Source: a virus
Virus record (IMG/VR): IMGVR_UViG_3300046816_000552
Coordinates: 1-23,648 of that record
Strand: one strand, 5' to 3'
Length of the DNA: 23,648 nt
Part shown: piece by piece, positions 4,176 through 18,610 of the stretch
How positions within the stretch are numbered: position 1 is the stretch's first letter
Layout of the letters: each line of letters starts with the position of its first letter
The notes under the pieces: generated by a model
Seen by the model: only the letters and a program-made list of their open reading frames with translations
What the model was told of the DNA's origin: nothing
The model's database searches: none
Program-made: the position numbers and the translations under genes

Positions 4176-5825
4176 TTACCCCCTGTGTCCGATGCCGCCC
4201 TGCGTGTTTCTGGCGTCCGCACCGCGGTTGTGGATCGGGTAGTAGCCGCCGAGGTTACTCAGCCCCTGCGTCTCCAAGAAGGCGACGTCGCCGGGCGAGA
4301 GACCGAGTGCGCCGTACTGCGTCAGCAGGTTGGATGCGGCGTTGATGAAGCCAGTGTCGACGTTGACCGGCAGCGCCGGGCCGGGCACGGTGACCGGCTT
4401 CCCGGTGTTCGGGTCAGTCTTTTGCTTCGCGCCGTGCACGCGCTGGTAGGTGCCGTTCTCCAGATCGAGGCGCGCCTTGTTGAGTGCGTCTGGGTCACCG
4501 CGGTGCAGGTGCTGGATGTCCCACAGCAGCGCGTTCTTTACCGAGCCGACGAGGTTGCGCGTGGTGCGCTGCGACGCGGCTGAGGCGATCTTCACCGGGC
4601 GGCCGTTGACCAGCTGCGTGCCCTTCCCGGCGTTAGCGGCCGCGTTGGCGGCCCGCTGCTGCGCGGTGGCGGCGTTGGTCTGGCCGATGGCTTCGGTGAC
4701 CGCGTTGTGTCGGGCGGTCTCCTGCGCCACCGCGCGCTGGTGCGCGGCCTGGTCGGTGTAGTGCGTCGAGTTGATCTTCTCCATGGCCGAGTTGTGCCGG
4801 GCCGTTTCCTCCGCGCGCTGGCGCGAGGTGATTGCGTTGTACTGGCCGGTCTTGGCGCGCGTGACGCCCGCCTGCGCGGTGATCTTGGAGATGCCGAGCT
4901 TTTGCTCCAGCGCGGCCTGGCTCTGGTTGTATTGCGCCTTGGAAATCTCGACCCCCTGGAGGCGCGCGATTTCCTTGGCGATGTCGCCGGTGCGCGAGAC
5001 GAGCAGTTTGGAGCGCTCGGAGGCGATGGACTGGAGCGACTTGCTGAGCGTGTCGAACTCAGCGGCCTTGGCCTGCGAGATGCGGCCCTGCGCCACCTGC
5101 CCGGCATTCACGATCGAGGTGTTGCCCACGCCGACCTGTACGGCCTCGCGCTCGGCGGCCGCGGCCGTCTCGGCGTTGGCCGCATTGATCGCGGGGGCGC
5201 TCGCGGAGGTGGCCGCGGCCTGAAGCTGGCCGGGCGCCGTGCCGGTGCCCTGGATCTGGCCTGCCAGCTGGCCGGGCAGCGCGCCCAGCGCCTGCTGCTG
5301 CGTCTGGAGGATGCCGTTCATCGTGTCGGCCAGCTTCTGGTTGACGGTGTCGGTCTGCGCCTGCATCGACTGCGTCTGTGTGGTCAGCCACTTGGCGAAG
5401 GCGGCGTCGTCGGCCGACTGCGTCTTGAAGAGGTTCTGCGCCTGCTGGCGCTGGTTGTTCAAGTCCTTGAAGTCACCGCCGTACGCCGCGCCGACGGTCT
5501 TCGACGCCTGCTGGCGGATCTGCTGCGGCGTGAGCGGCGCCAGCGGGTTGGTCGGGATGCTGCCGCCACCACCGCGGCGGTGCGGGGCGGGCGCGCTCGT
5601 GTTGGCGATGGGGTTGACGTGTGCGGCGGCGCCGGTGTGGCCCTGCTGCGGCTGGTTGTTGCGCGGCGGCGGCGTGCCGGGGCGGTTGCGGTTGGTCACG
5701 CGAACCGGCGGGCCGGACGAGAAGCTGCGGAGCGGCTGGGGGCGCGCGAGCGGGTCGCGGATGGCCGGGCGCTGCGGCTGCGAGCGCGGCGGGGCTGCGA
5801 CGCCAGCGCCGCCGGAGTAGGCCAT
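4176..5825 (-). CDS. helical candidate internal virion protein, 549 aa
   Basis: ATG at 5825 overlaps the TAA of the preceding gene by one base (TAATG), implying coupled translation. Residues 1-90 are Pro/Arg/Asn/Gly-rich and disordered-looking and contain SFSSGPPVRV (34-43), a motif also present at both ends of the 300-aa neighbour. Residues about 95-400 are Gln/Ala-rich long helices with coiled-coil character, including two similar segments (ETARHNSAMEKI and ETARHNAVTEAI). The final 140 residues are mixed and carry no known motif. Alanine/glutamine-rich helical proteins after the tail hub are typical of podovirus ejection complexes. No enzymatic function is visible. A tail-associated or scaffold-like role is possible. 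Confidence 0.65.
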   Translation of the reverse strand: MAYSGGAGVAAPPRSQPQRPAIRDPLARPQPLRSFSSGPPVRVTNRNRPGTPPPRNNQPQQGHTGAAAHVNPIANTSAPAPHRRGGGGSIPTNPLAPLTPQQIRQQASKTVGAAYGGDFKDLNNQRQQAQNLFKTQSADDAAFAKWLTTQTQSMQAQTDTVNQKLADTMNGILQTQQQALGALPGQLAGQIQGTGTAPGQLQAAATSASAPAINAANAETAAAAEREAVQVGVGNTSIVNAGQVAQGRISQAKAAEFDTLSKSLQSIASERSKLLVSRTGDIAKEIARLQGVEISKAQYNQSQAALEQKLGISKITAQAGVTRAKTGQYNAITSRQRAEETARHNSAMEKINSTHYTDQAAHQRAVAQETARHNAVTEAIGQTNAATAQQRAANAAANAGKGTQLVNGRPVKIASAASQRTTRNLVGSVKNALLWDIQHLHRGDPDALNKARLDLENGTYQRVHGAKQKTDPNTGKPVTVPGPALPVNVDTGFINAASNLLTQYGALGLSPGDVAFLETQGLSNLGGYYPIHNRGADARNTQGGIGHRG

Positions 5826-11041: not shown

Positions 11042-12325
11042 TTACCTCGCGTCGTCGGACAGACCCGTGAGCCGGAAGTGCGCTCCCCGGAAGGTCGTGC
11101 CCAGGTTGCAGTACTTGTAGAGCACGGCGATGTACCGGTCTCGACGGTTCTCCCACTTGAGGACGTCACCGTCGCGGTCCATCCAGTTCCAGTCGGAACC
11201 CTGCGCCCAGAACATCTTGTTCAGAGCCAGGCCGTACATGTTGCCGATCGGGCACGTGTCGTCGACGAAGATCGGGTTCTCGTCGAACATCAGCGCGGTG
11301 AACCCACCGTGCAGTGTGACGGAACTCGCGTCGTTGAACCGCTTGAGGGCGGTCAGCGTGTCCGAGTACCGGCGGCGGATACCGCGGGTCGTGATCAGGG
11401 CGAAGTCGAGGCCCGCTGCCAGATCGAGACCCTGCTCGAATCCGACCGCGTCCTTGGCATCGCGCATGACCGCGTCCGAGATAGGCCCACCGATGGCCTT
11501 GACGTAGGACTTCCAGAAGTTGTACGTCGCCGGGTTGAAGCTGTGCAGCACACCGGTGTTGTTCACGATGTTGGCCAGCCCGTTGATTTCCTTGTTCTGG
11601 GAGTTGTTCGGCAGGGCGACGGTCGAGTCACTGGAAGCACGAACCGGGAAGTGCGTACCCGCCGTCAGCGTGGCGATGAGCGCCGGGCTGATGGTGATGC
11701 TCAGGTTGACTCGGTCGACTCCGGTCACAACGTGACCCGGAGACAGCACCACACCCGTGGCTGCAACGAAGTCGACGACCTCGCCCAGTCCGCGGAAGTT
11801 GATGGTGGATCCGACGTTCAGGATCGAGGATCCTGAAGCGAGTGAGCCACCACCGGCACCAGTCGCCGTGAGGGTCGACATTGAGCCGGTGCCGTCACCG
11901 AACGCCGCGCGGTTGAAGTCGAGCTTCGACGCGAGGACGGTGTCGGACATCTCCTGCTTGAACGCTGGGACGAACGCGCCGTCGCCAGACTCGGAAGCCT
12001 GGAGCAGCGGCCCAGTGATGTTGAACAGCGCGTATGCGTAACGCAGCGGCTCCGTCAGGAAGCTGTACTGCGAAGCGCCAGGCGCCGGAAGGATTTCGCC
12101 CTCAGAGCGGAACCCGACGGCCTGGTTGCGCCGGACCTTGTACGGGATACGAAAGTCGTTCCCGACGAATGAGATACCCTCGGCAGAGGGCAGGATGCCC
12201 TTGAAGTCCGTGGGGTTGGCGGCAGAGTCTCCAAACAGGAGCACCATGCCACGCGGCAGAGCGTCACGAATAGGCCCGAGAAGTCGGGTCTTCATGGCGC
12301 CTGCGAATGTTGCGGTATCGGCCAT
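11042..12325 (-). CDS. major capsid protein (HK97-type fold inferred)
   Basis: 427 aa, ATG at 12325 preceded by GGAGGAAGG, a strong site suiting an abundant protein. It starts MADTATFAGAMKT. An early basic/aromatic block (IPYKVRRNQAVGFRSEGE) and an axial-domain-like C-terminal half (LHSFNPATYNFWKSYVKAIG, then GGFTALMFDENPIFVDDTCP and MYGLALNKMFWAQG) match the layout of podovirus HK97-fold capsid proteins, in which ATYxFW and LMFxxxPIxxD are recurrent. The scaffold gene lies upstream. It is separated from that gene by about 400 bp holding oppositely oriented tRNAs, so it may need its own promoter. A 13-residue version of its N-terminus recurs in the 46-aa gene at 18610-18750. Confidence 0.88.
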   Translation of the reverse strand: MADTATFAGAMKTRLLGPIRDALPRGMVLLFGDSAANPTDFKGILPSAEGISFVGNDFRIPYKVRRNQAVGFRSEGEILPAPGASQYSFLTEPLRYAYALFNITGPLLQASESGDGAFVPAFKQEMSDTVLASKLDFNRAAFGDGTGSMSTLTATGAGGGSLASGSSILNVGSTINFRGLGEVVDFVAATGVVLSPGHVVTGVDRVNLSITISPALIATLTAGTHFPVRASSDSTVALPNNSQNKEINGLANIVNNTGVLHSFNPATYNFWKSYVKAIGGPISDAVMRDAKDAVGFEQGLDLAAGLDFALITTRGIRRRYSDTLTALKRFNDASSVTLHGGFTALMFDENPIFVDDTCPIGNMYGLALNKMFWAQGSDWNWMDRDGDVLKWENRRDRYIAVLYKYCNLGTTFRGAHFRLTGLSDDAR

Positions 12326-12476: not shown

Positions 12477-12547
12477 GCGGAACTGGTGTAGTGGCAGCAC
12501 AGCGGCTTCCAAACCCGCCAGTCGAGGTTCGATTCCTTGGTTCCGTG
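12477..12547 (+). tRNA. tRNA-Trp (CCA)
   Basis: 71 nt without encoded CCA. The acceptor stem GCGGAAC/GTTCCGT is fully paired (one G-U). The D arm is GTGT/GCAC, the anticodon stem GCGGC/CCCGC (with a C-C mismatch at the loop end) around loop TTCCAAA, and the T arm CGAGG/CCTTG with loop TTCGATT. Anticodon CCA reads UGG. The discriminator G73 agrees with bacterial tRNA-Trp, whereas tRNA-Gly normally has U73, which argues against reading the loop one base earlier as TCC (Gly). The mismatch next to the loop is unusual. It is antisense to the late transcript. Confidence 0.8.
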
Positions 12548-12550
12548 CTC

Positions 12551-12616
12551 GCGGTGGATTGAGGAATCAAGCCGGTCTCATACGCCGGTCATCCGGTTCG
12601 ACTCCGGCCCGCCCCC
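12551..12616 (+). tRNA. tRNA-Met-like (CAT) with reduced D arm
   Basis: About 66 nt, 3 nt after the Trp tRNA and 1 nt before the Asn tRNA. Acceptor GCGGTGG/CCGCCCC pairs with one mismatch at position 2. Anticodon stem CCGGT/GCCGG encloses CTCATAC, giving anticodon CAT. The T arm TCCGG/CCGGC has loop TTCGACT and one mismatch at its base. The D arm is TTGA/TCAA with only a 4-nt loop, and the variable region is 3 nt, so the molecule is shorter than normal. It could be elongator Met, a lysidine-modified Ile tRNA, or a decayed gene. Confidence 0.6.
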
Positions 12617-12617
12617 A

Positions 12618-12690
12618 TGGCCTGTAGCTCAGTTGGCAGAGCACGCGGTTGTTACCCGCGCGGTCGCAGGTTCGAGACCTGCCGGGCCAG
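12618..12690 (+). tRNA. tRNA-Asn (GTT)
   Basis: 73 nt, canonical cloverleaf: acceptor TGGCCTG/CGGGCCA, D arm GCTC/GAGC with AGTTGGCA loop, anticodon stem CGCGG/CCGCG around TTGTTAC (anticodon GTT), T arm GCAGG/CCTGC with TTCGAGA, discriminator G. CCA is not encoded. It is the last tRNA of the cassette and is followed 7 bp later by a perfect hairpin. Confidence 0.93.
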
Positions 12691-12697
12691 CTACTGC

Positions 12698-13564: not shown

Positions 13565-13963
13565 CTATCGACGGGAGGCCGCGTTGACGCTGGCCTTGTG
13601 CATCTCGACGATGGCGTTGTGCATATCGCCGTGGGCAGCGCCCGTGGGCGAAGATCCGTTGATCGAATTCTGGGGCTGCGGCTGGGGCGGTGGTGCGCCC
13701 ATCGACGCGCCGGGCGGAGGTGGCCCACCGGCCGCTGGCTGGCCCTGCGGTGGGCCTGCGTCGCCCGGCTGGGCGCCTACAGGTCCAGCGGCGAGCGCCT
13801 TGGCGACGCCTGCGTAAAGCTCGGAAGTCTGGTCGATCTGTGAAGTCACCTGGGGCGGCGCGCCCGCGTGGGCGAGACCGGTGGCCAGCATGTGGATGTC
13901 CTGCACGATGTCGACGGCAAGCTCGTGCAGCGAACGGTTGTCAGCAGCGCCTTGTGTAGCCAT
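13565..13963 (-). CDS. small Pro/Gly-rich protein between portal and scaffold, 132 aa
   Basis: ATG at 13963, weak AGGG site upstream, TAG stop at 13565-13567; the frame after this TAG is only a shadow of the scaffold gene, so TAG is a true stop here. Residues 1-60 are helical (RSLHELAVDIVQDIHMLATG, then TSQIDQTSELYAGVAKALAA). Residues 60-105 are Pro/Gly/Gln-rich. The C-terminus is a short helix (HGDMHNAIVEMHKASVNAA). It has no recognised family. Position suggests a head assembly or portal-associated accessory protein. Confidence 0.7.
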   Translation of the reverse strand: MATQGAADNRSLHELAVDIVQDIHMLATGLAHAGAPPQVTSQIDQTSELYAGVAKALAAGPVGAQPGDAGPPQGQPAAGGPPPPGASMGAPPPQPQPQNSINGSSPTGAAHGDMHNAIVEMHKASVNAASRR

Positions 13964-13979: not shown

Positions 13980-14960
13980 TTAGTGCGTCACACCACGTGC
14001 GCCGGTGTTGAGTTGTCCGGCGGTGCGCTGTCGGTACTGCGCTTGCGCCTGCGGCGTGTCGCGCGCGGCGAACGGGTCGACCGGCGGCTGCGCTCCGAAT
14101 GCATTGGGTGGCGGCTGCTGTGGCCCTCCCGGCTCGGGCGGGTTCTGCGGACTGGCTCCGGGCGCGCCCGGCGCTGCACCGCCGCCCTGGAAGCCTGCAC
14201 CCTGCGCGACCGCGGCGGCCAGCTGCTGGCGCTGCAAGTCCTGGCCGAGCTTCTGGATCCACAGCTGCTCGTGCTTCTGCGCGTGCGACTCCAGCATCTG
14301 CTTGACCTTGAGCGACGAGCGCCGGTACTCGGCCGTCTTGCGGTAGTTGTTCAACTCGCGCAAGTGGGTCTCGTGATCCTCCCACGAGTTGGGGGCGACG
14401 AACTGGCCGGTCGCCATGATCAGGTTCTCGTTGCGCTGCTGGCGGATGTCGAAGCTCTTGTCCGGCGAGATGGTGCTGATCGGCACGTCCATCAGGTTGG
14501 CCATCACGTTCGGGTCGGTGATGATGCCCTGCGTCCACATGTTCATCCAGCGGTCCTCGCGCGCCGCGCGCGACTGCCCGATGCCCGCGGCCATGGTGAC
14601 GCGCACGGTGATGGCCGGGTCGATCTGGCGCGTCCACAGCGACTTGACCTCGGGGTAGCCCTCGGTCGAGTAGGTGACGAACACCGTCTCGGCGGTGCCG
14701 AACTGGCGCACCAGGCGGGCCTGCTGGTAGAAGCCGACGGCGATGGACTTCTTGATGGTGCGGGTCAACTCGGCCAGCCGCCCGTTGTCCGACTCCTTGA
14801 GTAGCTCGATGGCGGCGGCGGCCTCGACGCGGCCCGGCACCTGCGCCTGGCTCACCTCGTGCACGCCGACCGAGTCCATCATCTCGTTACGCAGCCACTG
14901 GCCCATCGCGTCCATGTTGGGCGAGATGCCCGGCTGGATCAACTCGGGCTTGAGGCCCAT
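13980..14960 (-). CDS. portal protein, C-terminal part (downstream of in-frame TAG)
   Basis: 326 codons from ATG 14960 to TAA. It is in the same frame as the 349-aa ORF upstream, separated only by TAG GGC ACC. The segment MMDSVGVHEVSQAQVPGRVE followed by AAAAIELLKESDNGRLAELT is the signature of the stem/crown-side region of P22-like portal proteins (typically SGVHEVSxGQxPxGVxSxxAIxxLxExDDxRL), which normally lies in the middle of one chain. The C-terminal third has a helical barrel-like region (SSLKVKQMLESHAQKHEQLW) and a Gly/Pro/Gln-rich tail. Only a weak AGGG precedes the ATG, so expression would rely on restart after the TAG or on readthrough. With the upstream part the chain would be about 678 aa, a normal size for such portals. 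Confidence 0.85.
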   Translation of the reverse strand: MGLKPELIQPGISPNMDAMGQWLRNEMMDSVGVHEVSQAQVPGRVEAAAAIELLKESDNGRLAELTRTIKKSIAVGFYQQARLVRQFGTAETVFVTYSTEGYPEVKSLWTRQIDPAITVRVTMAAGIGQSRAAREDRWMNMWTQGIITDPNVMANLMDVPISTISPDKSFDIRQQRNENLIMATGQFVAPNSWEDHETHLRELNNYRKTAEYRRSSLKVKQMLESHAQKHEQLWIQKLGQDLQRQQLAAAVAQGAGFQGGGAAPGAPGASPQNPPEPGGPQQPPPNAFGAQPPVDPFAARDTPQAQAQYRQRTAGQLNTGARGVTH

Positions 14961-14966
14961 GGTGCC

Positions 14967-16016
14967 CTAGCCGCGCAGCACCTGGTTCGGCCGGTCGTTC
15001 GGCGGCGCTTGCAGCTGGATTTCCTCGGGGATCCACCACTTCGGGTTGGAGTGGAAGCGCTGGAGCAAGATGGTCTGCGCGTGGTAGTTGTTCAACTCCT
15101 GCTGCTCCGGGCGCATGGTCTCGACCGCGCACGTGTAGTGCAGCTGGCCGGGGCGCGGGATGGATCCGACGATGGTGAACGGCAGTTGGAGGTGGTCGTA
15201 CGGATAGGTGCGCGGCGGGGTCAGCTGGTACTTGCCGCTCCACACGGAGAACAGGCCGCCGGGATACTGCCGCGACGGCTTGTGCCAAAGCTCGGTGACC
15301 GGTGCGCCCTCCAGCACGCCTGCCATGCCCATCTGCGCCAGCAGCGCGCCGCGGTTGGGGTCGTCGGTGGCCGCCGACTGCGGCGGCACCTTGACGCCGT
15401 AGATGTCGTAAATCTGCTCGACGTCCATGAAGCGGCGGTGGAAGATGTAGCGGGCGTGGTCGAGGTCGGTCGCGTACGGGTCGGGGTACACGTCGAGCGG
15501 CGAGACGGCGGCGATGTCGCCGCGGCCCTTGCCGTGCCCGTGGTCGATGTTCGGATCCCACGTCCACTTGAGCCAGCCCTCGCCCGCGGCCAGCGCCCAC
15601 AGGGTGGCCGCCGCCAGCTGCCCGTCGAAGTCGGCCACCTGCTCGGAGGACAGCCAGTTGAGGTAGGCCAGCAGCACGTTGGCATTGGAGATGGCCATGG
15701 GGTCGTTGTTGGCCGGGAGCACGTCGGCCGTCGGCCGCGTGTTGAGCGCCATCGAGTGCTCTTGCAGCACGAAGTGCTGGATCTTGTTCGAGACCGGCCG
15801 CGGCACCTGTAGCTCGGCGCCCTGCGCATCGCGCGGCAGCGCCATCTGCCGGATGGACCCGGTCTGCGGGTGCCACTCGGAGTACTGCCAGCTGAGGAAG
15901 AAGGCTGCGTTCAGCAGGATGTTGCGATCGAACGGCAGCCGTGCGCGACGAGTCTTCTCGAAGAGCTTCTCCAAATCCTCGTTGGGATTTGTCGTTGCGC
16001 GCTCAAAGAACGCCAC
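14967..16016 (-). CDS. portal protein, N-terminal part (ends at in-frame TAG)
   Basis: 349 aa from a GTG at 16016 preceded by GCGAGGA. It contains the N-terminal wing region of P22-type portals: RNILLNAAFFLSWQYSEWHP, then RPVSNKIQHFVLQEHSMALN, GEGWLKWTWDPNIDHG, DVYPDPYATDLDHARYIFHR, and MRPEQQELNNYHAQTILLQR followed by HSNPKWWIPEE. In homologues known to me, the RPEQxELN...NPK region continues directly to the GVHEVSQ region, which here lies beyond the TAG at 14967-14969. The ring-forming portal of the head vertex is therefore encoded in two pieces, or read through. A sequencing error or a true nonsense mutation are the alternatives. Confidence 0.87.
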   Translation of the reverse strand: MAFFERATTNPNEDLEKLFEKTRRARLPFDRNILLNAAFFLSWQYSEWHPQTGSIRQMALPRDAQGAELQVPRPVSNKIQHFVLQEHSMALNTRPTADVLPANNDPMAISNANVLLAYLNWLSSEQVADFDGQLAAATLWALAAGEGWLKWTWDPNIDHGHGKGRGDIAAVSPLDVYPDPYATDLDHARYIFHRRFMDVEQIYDIYGVKVPPQSAATDDPNRGALLAQMGMAGVLEGAPVTELWHKPSRQYPGGLFSVWSGKYQLTPPRTYPYDHLQLPFTIVGSIPRPGQLHYTCAVETMRPEQQELNNYHAQTILLQRFHSNPKWWIPEEIQLQAPPNDRPNQVLRG

Positions 16017-16019
16017 GAG

Positions 16020-16391
16020 CTAGTCCTCGCCGCGGGCGAACTCAGCTGCGCGCTTGAACGACTCGGCGTCGTACGGGTCGAACTCGGGCGGCACGATGTC
16101 CACCGGCACCTGACCGACCGGCTGAAGCTCGACCGGGTCGGGGGTGTCGCGTTCGCCACCGGCCAGCGGCTCGACGCCGCCCGCCTCATACTGATCGAGC
16201 AGCGCGGCCATCGCGCGCACTTCGGAGGCGGCGACGACGGCGTACGGGCTGATGTAGCTCTCGTACTCCTGGTTCGGCCAGATGAAGTAAGGTCCGGTTG
16301 CGTCAGCGTCACCGGTTGGGCCAGCGAGTGATCCGCCTCCGCCGGTGATGTCGTTCGGGTTGACCTGTACGAGGTCGAAGTTCAGGGGCAT
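16020..16391 (-). CDS. hypothetical protein between terminase and portal, 123 aa
   Basis: ATG at 16391 with GGAGACG upstream, 12 bp after the terminase stop. The peptide is acidic with a Gly-rich N-terminus (NDITGGGGSLAGPTGDADAT), a helical centre (SPYAVVAASEVRAMAALLDQ) and a Pro-rich C-terminal half (PVDIVPPEFDPYDAESFKRA). No family is recognised. It ends in TAG and the portal GTG follows one codon later in the same frame, so its translation and that of the portal are probably coupled. Its position would suit a small packaging-motor or portal accessory protein. Confidence 0.7.
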   Translation of the reverse strand: MPLNFDLVQVNPNDITGGGGSLAGPTGDADATGPYFIWPNQEYESYISPYAVVAASEVRAMAALLDQYEAGGVEPLAGGERDTPDPVELQPVGQVPVDIVPPEFDPYDAESFKRAAEFARGED

Positions 16392-16403: not shown

Positions 16404-17822
16404 TTATTGGGGAATTCCAAGGTCACTGTAGCTTACGGCACTCCCAAGACGGCTCTGCTGGCGCTGCCGACGGACGTCGGCCCACACCTCTTCGCTCCAG
16501 TTCTGGGGCGGCGGCTCGTACGGCTTGGTGCGGAAGGGCAGGAAGCGCCCGGCGATGAACTGGCTAGCCTCGACCAGGTCGGTGTTCTTCTTCAGCGGCT
16601 CCTGCTTGGGTTCCTCGCCCGATCGCTTCTGCGACGGGGTCAGATCCTTCCACTGGTAGTTGGCCAGCGACTCGATCAACTGCGGCAGATCCTCGCTCAC
16701 GACGAAGCGGCGCAGCTTGAGCAGGCGGCCCAGCTGCCAGATGCGCGTGTCGCGGTCGGCCGCGCCGAGGGCAAAGTTGTAGCCCAGCCGCGCGTACTGC
16801 TGCTGGAGCGGGATGGCCGTGCCGCGGTCGCGCTGGGTGATCGAGTTGGGGTCGCCCACCCGCCAGCGCACGCGCATCCGCTGCATGGCCTCGATCTGAC
16901 GCCACTTGGCAGCGTGGATGTCGACGGCCAGGCCCGGTTCCTTGTACTCCGCGATGGCGATGAGTCGGTGGTTGGCCTCGTCCACCTCGGCCCACACGCC
17001 CGCGGTCGGGTTCTGCGTGCCGGGGTCCATACCCATCCACACGACCGGCCCGGCGTGGTGTGGGTCATAGTGGGGGTGCGGGATGATGGTGCCGGGCGCG
17101 CCGAAGTCCTCGTAGATGCGCCCGGCGAAGTCGTCGAACTGGCAGAGCACGAAGCGCATGATGTACGGCCGCGGCATGTTCATCAGGTCGTCGACGTAGT
17201 CGCGCGGCAGGAAGGGGTTGTCCAGTGTCGTGCTGAAAAAACTGTCGACGCCGTCCTCGTGCTCGGGCGAGTCCGGATGCGCCAGCTTGTACAGCCAGTC
17301 CTTGCCGTTCGGGTTGGTAGCGCCCCACGCGCCGCGGCGGGTGATCTTGCCGGTGTAACCGCGTGCGTATGCCTCGGGGGTCAGCAACTCCTGGCGCAGT
17401 CGGGTGCGCATGCCGTGGAAGGTGTCGAAGTCGAACTCGGACATCTCATCGAAGAAGATGAAGCCCAGGTTGAGCGACCGGTGCTTCTCCCAGTCGTCGA
17501 TCGAGCGGAACAGCACCCGGCTGCCGTTGGGGAAGGTGATCGATTCGAGGTGGCCGTTGGTGCGCCGCACGTTGCTGGCGCGGTATAGCTCGGCGGGTAA
17601 GCGAGCGAGGAACACGCGCTCGGTGGAGTCGCGAAGCTCCGGCACCGTCTTGCGGGTGACCATGCCCTCGATGCCCGGCTGCTCCAGCATCCAGGCGATG
17701 ACCTCGTCACAGCCTGCGAAACTCTTGCCCGAGCCGACGGCACCGAACAGCACGCGAAAGCGCGCGCCCGAGCGGTGGAACGGCTCATGTACCGGCAGCG
17801 GCTTGCCGAAGATAACCTGCAT
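16404..17822 (-). CDS. terL: terminase large subunit (packaging ATPase and nuclease)
   Basis: 472 aa. The ATG at 17822 overlaps the preceding TGA by one base (TGATG); a longer frame upstream is a shadow of the previous gene. ATPase part: Walker A GAVGSGKS (27-34), Walker B FIFFDE (121-126), coupling motif GATNPNGKDW (about 167-176). Nuclease part: GMDPGTQNPTAG with the first metal-binding Asp near 266, GDPNS (Asp about 324) and TDLVEASQF (about 414-422) as the last acidic site. It translocates genomic DNA through the portal and cuts concatemers. Length is normal for the family. It is preceded by a beta-rich structural gene rather than directly by the small terminase. Confidence 0.95.
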   Translation of the reverse strand: MQVIFGKPLPVHEPFHRSGARFRVLFGAVGSGKSFAGCDEVIAWMLEQPGIEGMVTRKTVPELRDSTERVFLARLPAELYRASNVRRTNGHLESITFPNGSRVLFRSIDDWEKHRSLNLGFIFFDEMSEFDFDTFHGMRTRLRQELLTPEAYARGYTGKITRRGAWGATNPNGKDWLYKLAHPDSPEHEDGVDSFFSTTLDNPFLPRDYVDDLMNMPRPYIMRFVLCQFDDFAGRIYEDFGAPGTIIPHPHYDPHHAGPVVWMGMDPGTQNPTAGVWAEVDEANHRLIAIAEYKEPGLAVDIHAAKWRQIEAMQRMRVRWRVGDPNSITQRDRGTAIPLQQQYARLGYNFALGAADRDTRIWQLGRLLKLRRFVVSEDLPQLIESLANYQWKDLTPSQKRSGEEPKQEPLKKNTDLVEASQFIAGRFLPFRTKPYEPPPQNWSEEVWADVRRQRQQSRLGSAVSYSDLGIPQ

Positions 17823-18610
17823 CAGGCGAACGCGAGGGTCTGCACCCACAGCTTGCGACCGGATGCGGTCACCGAACCGGCCGAACTCTTGTACTGCACG
17901 CTGATGGTGTACGTGCCCGCGGCCGCGAACACCTGGATGTCCTGGCCCCACGGCGGGAAGGTGCCGGTCTCCAGCGTGCCGCCAAGCTCGACCGCGCAGG
18001 TAATCAGCCCGTTGCCCGCCACGCCGACGGCCTGGCCGGTGGTGACGTCCGACGGGTTGCCCTGGTTGGTCGGAGACACGATGCCCCACGGCCCGGCCGA
18101 CACCAGCGGCTGGTTGGTCGGCGCGCCCGCCGGAACGCCTGCGACGGTGCCGACGGTGTTGCCGACCGAGGCGCTGTCCAGCTGCGACTTCAGCTGGTTG
18201 GCGCCGATGAAGATTGCGGCGCGCGCGACGTTCGCGCCCGACTGCTGCCAGAGCGCCTGGAAGCGGATGACGAACAGCCCGTTGGCGGGCAGCACCAGGT
18301 TCTGCACCTGGTCTGGCGTGGGCAACTTGGCATAGGTCGTGCTGGAGACCGACTCGGCGCCCGGCACGTTCGAGAAGCCGCCGCCAACGATGCGGCCAGG
18401 CCCGGTGAGCGCGGCCGCCAGCCCCAGGTCGGCGCCGGTGGAGTCGACCATCACCACCTGCCGACGCCCGTCGGCGTCGGTCGCCTCGTACCCGCGGAGG
18501 GTGTCGGCCGCGGCGGGCGTCTGGTGCTTGGTCACCACCTGGAATTCCGGGCGGCCGTACCGGTCGTGCAGCAGGCCGCCGACGCCGTACTCAAATGCGT
18601 CAATGGCCAT
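17822..18610 (-). CDS. beta-rich structural protein, possible fibre or head-decoration protein
   Basis: 262 aa, ATG overlapping the TGA of the 46-aa gene by one base. The N-terminus (AIDAFEYGVGGLLHDRYGRP) and following 80 residues are mixed. Residues about 90-262 look like a jelly-roll domain of the C1q/TNF kind: YAKLPTPDQVQNLVLPANGL leads into VIRFQALWQQSGANVARAAI, and the end has TYTISVQYKSSAGSVTASG followed by KLWVQTLAFA. Such domains occur in phage fibres, spikes and head decorations, usually as trimers. No enzyme motif is seen. Lying between the small terminase and TerL, it is out of the usual order for a structural gene. The rightward fragment at 2-250 has a similar beta-rich style, but I could not establish homology. 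Confidence 0.7.
   Translation of the reverse strand: MAIDAFEYGVGGLLHDRYGRPEFQVVTKHQTPAAADTLRGYEATDADGRRQVVMVDSTGADLGLAAALTGPGRIVGGGFSNVPGAESVSSTTYAKLPTPDQVQNLVLPANGLFVIRFQALWQQSGANVARAAIFIGANQLKSQLDSASVGNTVGTVAGVPAGAPTNQPLVSAGPWGIVSPTNQGNPSDVTTGQAVGVAGNGLITCAVELGGTLETGTFPPWGQDIQVFAAAGTYTISVQYKSSAGSVTASGRKLWVQTLAFA

Follow-up and report, generated by a model that had tools for sequence, protein, structure and literature searches.

We found that the portal gene in a 23,648-base stretch of viral DNA (an IMG/VR virus record, here called the window) is interrupted by a single in-frame amber codon, which is probably a private nonsense lesion or a base error in the consensus, without evolved function. 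The record type is fragment and the sequence carries no end repeats. The source is a metagenome, and the window covers part of the genome of an uncultivated, high-GC tailed phage; in its relatives the portal is a single chain. The portal gene of the window is intact but for this one codon, which would then be either a wrong consensus base or a real, private nonsense allele, and a real allele would belong to a defective or minority genome.

On the minus strand, the sequence TAG GGC ACC ATG parts one reading frame into 349 and 326 codons, and the combined reading, with both ORFs in the same frame, comes to 678 codons (Table 1). A preliminary description of this DNA had reported two same-frame portal ORFs split by TAG GGC ACC before an ATG and a joined product of about 678 aa, and our coordinates and count agree with it; it had also correctly placed the amber between the RPEQxELN...NPK and GVHEVSQ blocks. 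The interval that it gave, 14961-14969, does span the TAG, but it also takes in the six bases before the ATG, and the minus strand went unstated. Two tRNA genes, for Trp (anticodon CCA) and Asn (GTT), lie on the plus strand at 12477-12691, in the gap that separates the major capsid gene from the structural gene next to it.

Table 1. Coordinates of the divided portal gene and of its neighbours in the window.
Feature	Coordinates	Strand	Description
N-terminal portal ORF	16016..14967	minus	GTG start, 349 codons and TAG; predicted to form the wing, the first stem helix and the beginning of the clip
Amber, portal codon 350	14967..14969	minus	In-frame TAG, private to the contig
ATG two codons past the TAG	14958..14960	minus	Possible restart codon, not conserved in relatives
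C-terminal portal ORF	14960..13980	minus	ATG start, 326 codons, TAA end; predicted to form the remainder of the clip, the second stem helix, the long channel helix, the crown and the tail
Small gene upstream of the portal	16020..16391	minus	Ends in TAG; portal GTG follows 3 bases later in the same frame
Large terminase gene (TerL)	16404..18089	minus	Uninterrupted; start codon uncertain
Major capsid protein (MCP) gene	11042..12325	minus	Uninterrupted

The N-terminal ORF alone matches P22_portal (PF16510, 1.4e-11) and the portal family phrog_156 (3.6e-20). The C-terminal ORF alone had no match in Pfam or PHROGs, and its core aligns to the C-terminal half of single-chain portals with 36-60% identity. 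When the stop is read through, the protein matches PF16510 at 6e-13 and SU10_portal (PF23899) at 4e-9, the latter across the break (residues 278-493). By sequence comparison, therefore, the two ORFs make up a single P22/SU10-type portal gene that an in-frame stop divides, a match well beyond chance, and as assembled this gene fails to encode a single uninterrupted portal chain because of the TAG at codon 350. Neither half contains a stop or frameshift other than the amber, and the two have diverged comparably from relatives; decay of the C-terminal half as a pseudogene was rejected on the same grounds. This even divergence, together with the lack of any further lesion, suggests the pattern that a recent change would leave. 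Recombination at codon 350, or a chimera in the assembly, was likewise rejected, since along the protein the identity to two clades of relatives does not change over cleanly at that codon, and GC at third positions is equal on both sides (0.93).

The model predicted for the read-through protein aligns with podophage portals over residues 21-475 (VIA-align Z of 20-23.5), with a mean pLDDT of only 61. The best matches by Foldseek and VIA-align are podophage and P22-type portals (Pan3, GP4, SU10, P22 and N4); when the portal profile was searched against the sequences of solved structures no portal came up, whereas the fold search did find portals. The model places a helix at residues 303-322, a low-confidence segment at 329-367, and further helices at 368-381 and 396-439. 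The clip of T7 gp8 lies between two stem helices, after which comes a channel helix of 39 residues (PMC6702177). On this analogy in helix order, codon 350 would fall in the clip. P22-like and SU10-like portals (PF16510, PF23899) share with the window portal a sequence match in both halves and the same order of folds; they are, however, one chain, whereas the window gene is divided by an amber within what is probably the clip.

Relatives were gathered by scanning viral contigs with growing alignments, which yielded a detectable portal in 36 other viral contigs, some of them near-duplicates and a few without coverage of the amber site. In 35 of the 36, the portal occupies a single frame as far as it is sequenced; in the remaining one, IMGVR_UViG_3300045258_000129, a frameshift unrelated to the amber lies near the portal start (about 1874-1934). 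None of the 36 has a stop at the amber site, a few lacking coverage of it, and a split portal is absent from every other contig surveyed. The relatives thus carry one uninterrupted gene and not the two separate, diverged, out-of-frame portal genes that the preliminary description had named as evidence against its reading. The alignment of homologous portals that it had proposed as a check gave a sense codon in the amber column wherever this was checked, mostly N and also V, T, S or D, within a stretch that has insertions, deletions and varied residues. The restart ATG aligns with non-methionine residues, so that both it and the amber are private to the window, which supports a lesion. Isolated phages with related portals (Arthrobacter, Microbacterium, Cellulosimicrobium and spring-water podophages) are only distantly related, with identities of about 23-26%, and in each the portal is a single gene. 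No identical or near-identical second contig was present among the viral contigs, and no relative was present among the genome contigs.

The main rival to a lesion or consensus error is a two-chain portal made by reinitiation, in which translation would terminate at the TAG and restart at the ATG six bases on, and chains of 349 and 326 aa would co-assemble into each ring subunit with the break in the clip. We consider this unlikely. The intactness and full length of both halves would fit such an arrangement, as would the position of the break in the low-confidence, variable segment 329-367, between the stem helices by analogy with T7 gp8. Counting against a lesion, the amber sits in a stretch that looks tolerant of breakage (variable, near an indel and in a putative clip loop) and an ATG follows two codons on, with an AGGG nearby. 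The joint chance of a near-indel position and a nearby ATG is roughly 2%, but this combination was chosen after the fact; 25% of portal core positions are near an indel, and an ATG occurs within three codons of 7.9% of codons, so that one this close is expected after about 8% of them. The geometry of stop and start is also that of a natural gene junction in these phages, for in several relatives, as in the window, the portal start overlaps a TAG or lies 0-3 bases past one (in L037, L002 and L013 the TAG directly adjoins or overlaps the start), and some of these starts have little ribosome-site sequence. Against reinitiation, the portal is split in none of the relatives, and none carries a start codon at the site that aligns with the ATG. 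The weak AGGG noted in the preliminary description is indeed weak: the ribosome site of the restart ATG (TAGGG with a 4-base spacer) is predicted at -4.3 kcal/mol, against a median of about -6.5 for the other starts of the window, and 21% of random positions are as good. In addition, the clip makes inter-subunit contacts and docks both the adaptor and the terminase (PMC6702177), and a break there is not obviously harmless.

Our search of open-licence literature revealed no portal described as divided into two chains by an amber. A parallel can be drawn with the Jug phages (PMC12363816), whose portal gene is reported to be fragmented, as that of the window is divided; their split genes are reported with evidence of RNA splicing, whereas the window portal has no insert and only a stop codon. 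Also counting against a lesion, otherwise conserved sites within residues 301-360 are replaced more often in the window lineage, at 14 of 39 positions compared with 37 of 214 (nominal p = 0.015); faster change around the break is not claimed, as the protein-wide scan gave p = 0.33.

A further alternative is amber suppression or readthrough, in which a TAG-reading tRNA from the host or from the unsequenced part of the phage would yield a full-length portal, possibly as incipient recoding of the kind seen in crAss-like phages; this we regard as improbable. The window is only a fragment of the genome, which leaves room for such a tRNA, and elsewhere in the clade another phage carries an in-frame TAG in a different essential head gene, at a position that is Y or W in relatives. 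Once they have gained a suppressor, crAss-like phages are reported to gather TAG codons in TerL and similar genes (PMC7886860). In amber-recoding members, in some cases ahead of complete recoding, in-frame TAGs lie in late genes and structural genes, and the window resembles these phages in its in-frame TAG. Those phages, in contrast, carry suppressor tRNAs or many TAGs (PMC7886860), whereas the window has one TAG, still uses TAG as a terminator, and revealed no suppressor. Its tRNAs are those for Trp (CCA) and Asn (GTT) only, and no CUA suppressor tRNA was detected in the 23.6-kb fragment or in the contigs of relatives, including about 42 kb of one phage. In one relative (L029), genes for Trp, Asn and Pro tRNAs lie at 15099-15321, upstream of TerL.

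The use of TAG itself also speaks against suppression. As the preliminary description had observed, TAG is a true stop elsewhere in the window, ending the upstream gene at 16020 and another gene at 13565, and in relatives it forms the junction between the preceding gene and the portal. A TAG-reassigned code would be recognised by frequent in-frame TAG and by its avoidance as a terminator; what we found is a single in-frame TAG in the genes compared alongside these terminators, and wholesale recoding was rejected. RNA structure as a driver of readthrough or restart was rejected as well, as the structure around the TAG is unremarkable (z of -0.9 to -1.2, about -1). The regulated options listed in the preliminary description thus gain no positive support: the fragment has no suppressor tRNA and no unusual RNA structure, and neither the site nor the restart codon is conserved.

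That description had listed its options without choosing among them, and of these a mutation or sequencing error fits best, because breaks in conserved genes occur in about 2% of copies in related contigs. In these contigs 94 further gene copies for portal, TerL and MCP were compared, and two are broken: the frameshifted portal of IMGVR_UViG_3300045258_000129 (L053) and a TerL with an amber in IMGVR_UViG_3300012011_000015 (L037; also L034). The latter is a close relative with its own portal intact, and its in-frame TAG, at 5122-5124, falls within the conserved GATNPAGHDWL-RRFHPDSP region. Given its GC content and codon usage, TAG accounts for 77% of the single-base changes that create a stop in the window portal gene, and for 72-78% in the high-GC portal and TerL genes; with TAG as the expected mutational stop and one TAG per contig, the two ambers need no special cause.

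We infer that the amber is non-functional. A portal amber prevents P22 from producing infectious virions unless it is suppressed or complemented (PMC9320234), and a real, unsuppressed amber should therefore not persist or spread in a replicating phage. The P22 gene 1 amber mutants (1-am, PMC9320234) resemble the window in having an in-frame portal amber, and these need suppression or complementation; they differ in being laboratory mutants whose amber is codon 5, whereas that of the window lies mid-gene in an uncultivated phage, with an ATG following at once.

If a two-chain portal were true, it would mean that the ring through which DNA is packed and ejected tolerates a chain break at the end where the motor and the adaptor dock. 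With a private lesion or consensus error as the probable explanation, the case instead indicates that, in these phage contigs from metagenomes, single-codon lesions in essential genes reach about 2% per conserved gene. At such a rate, an isolated in-frame stop, when unaccompanied by reads or conservation, should not be read as recoding or as a split gene.
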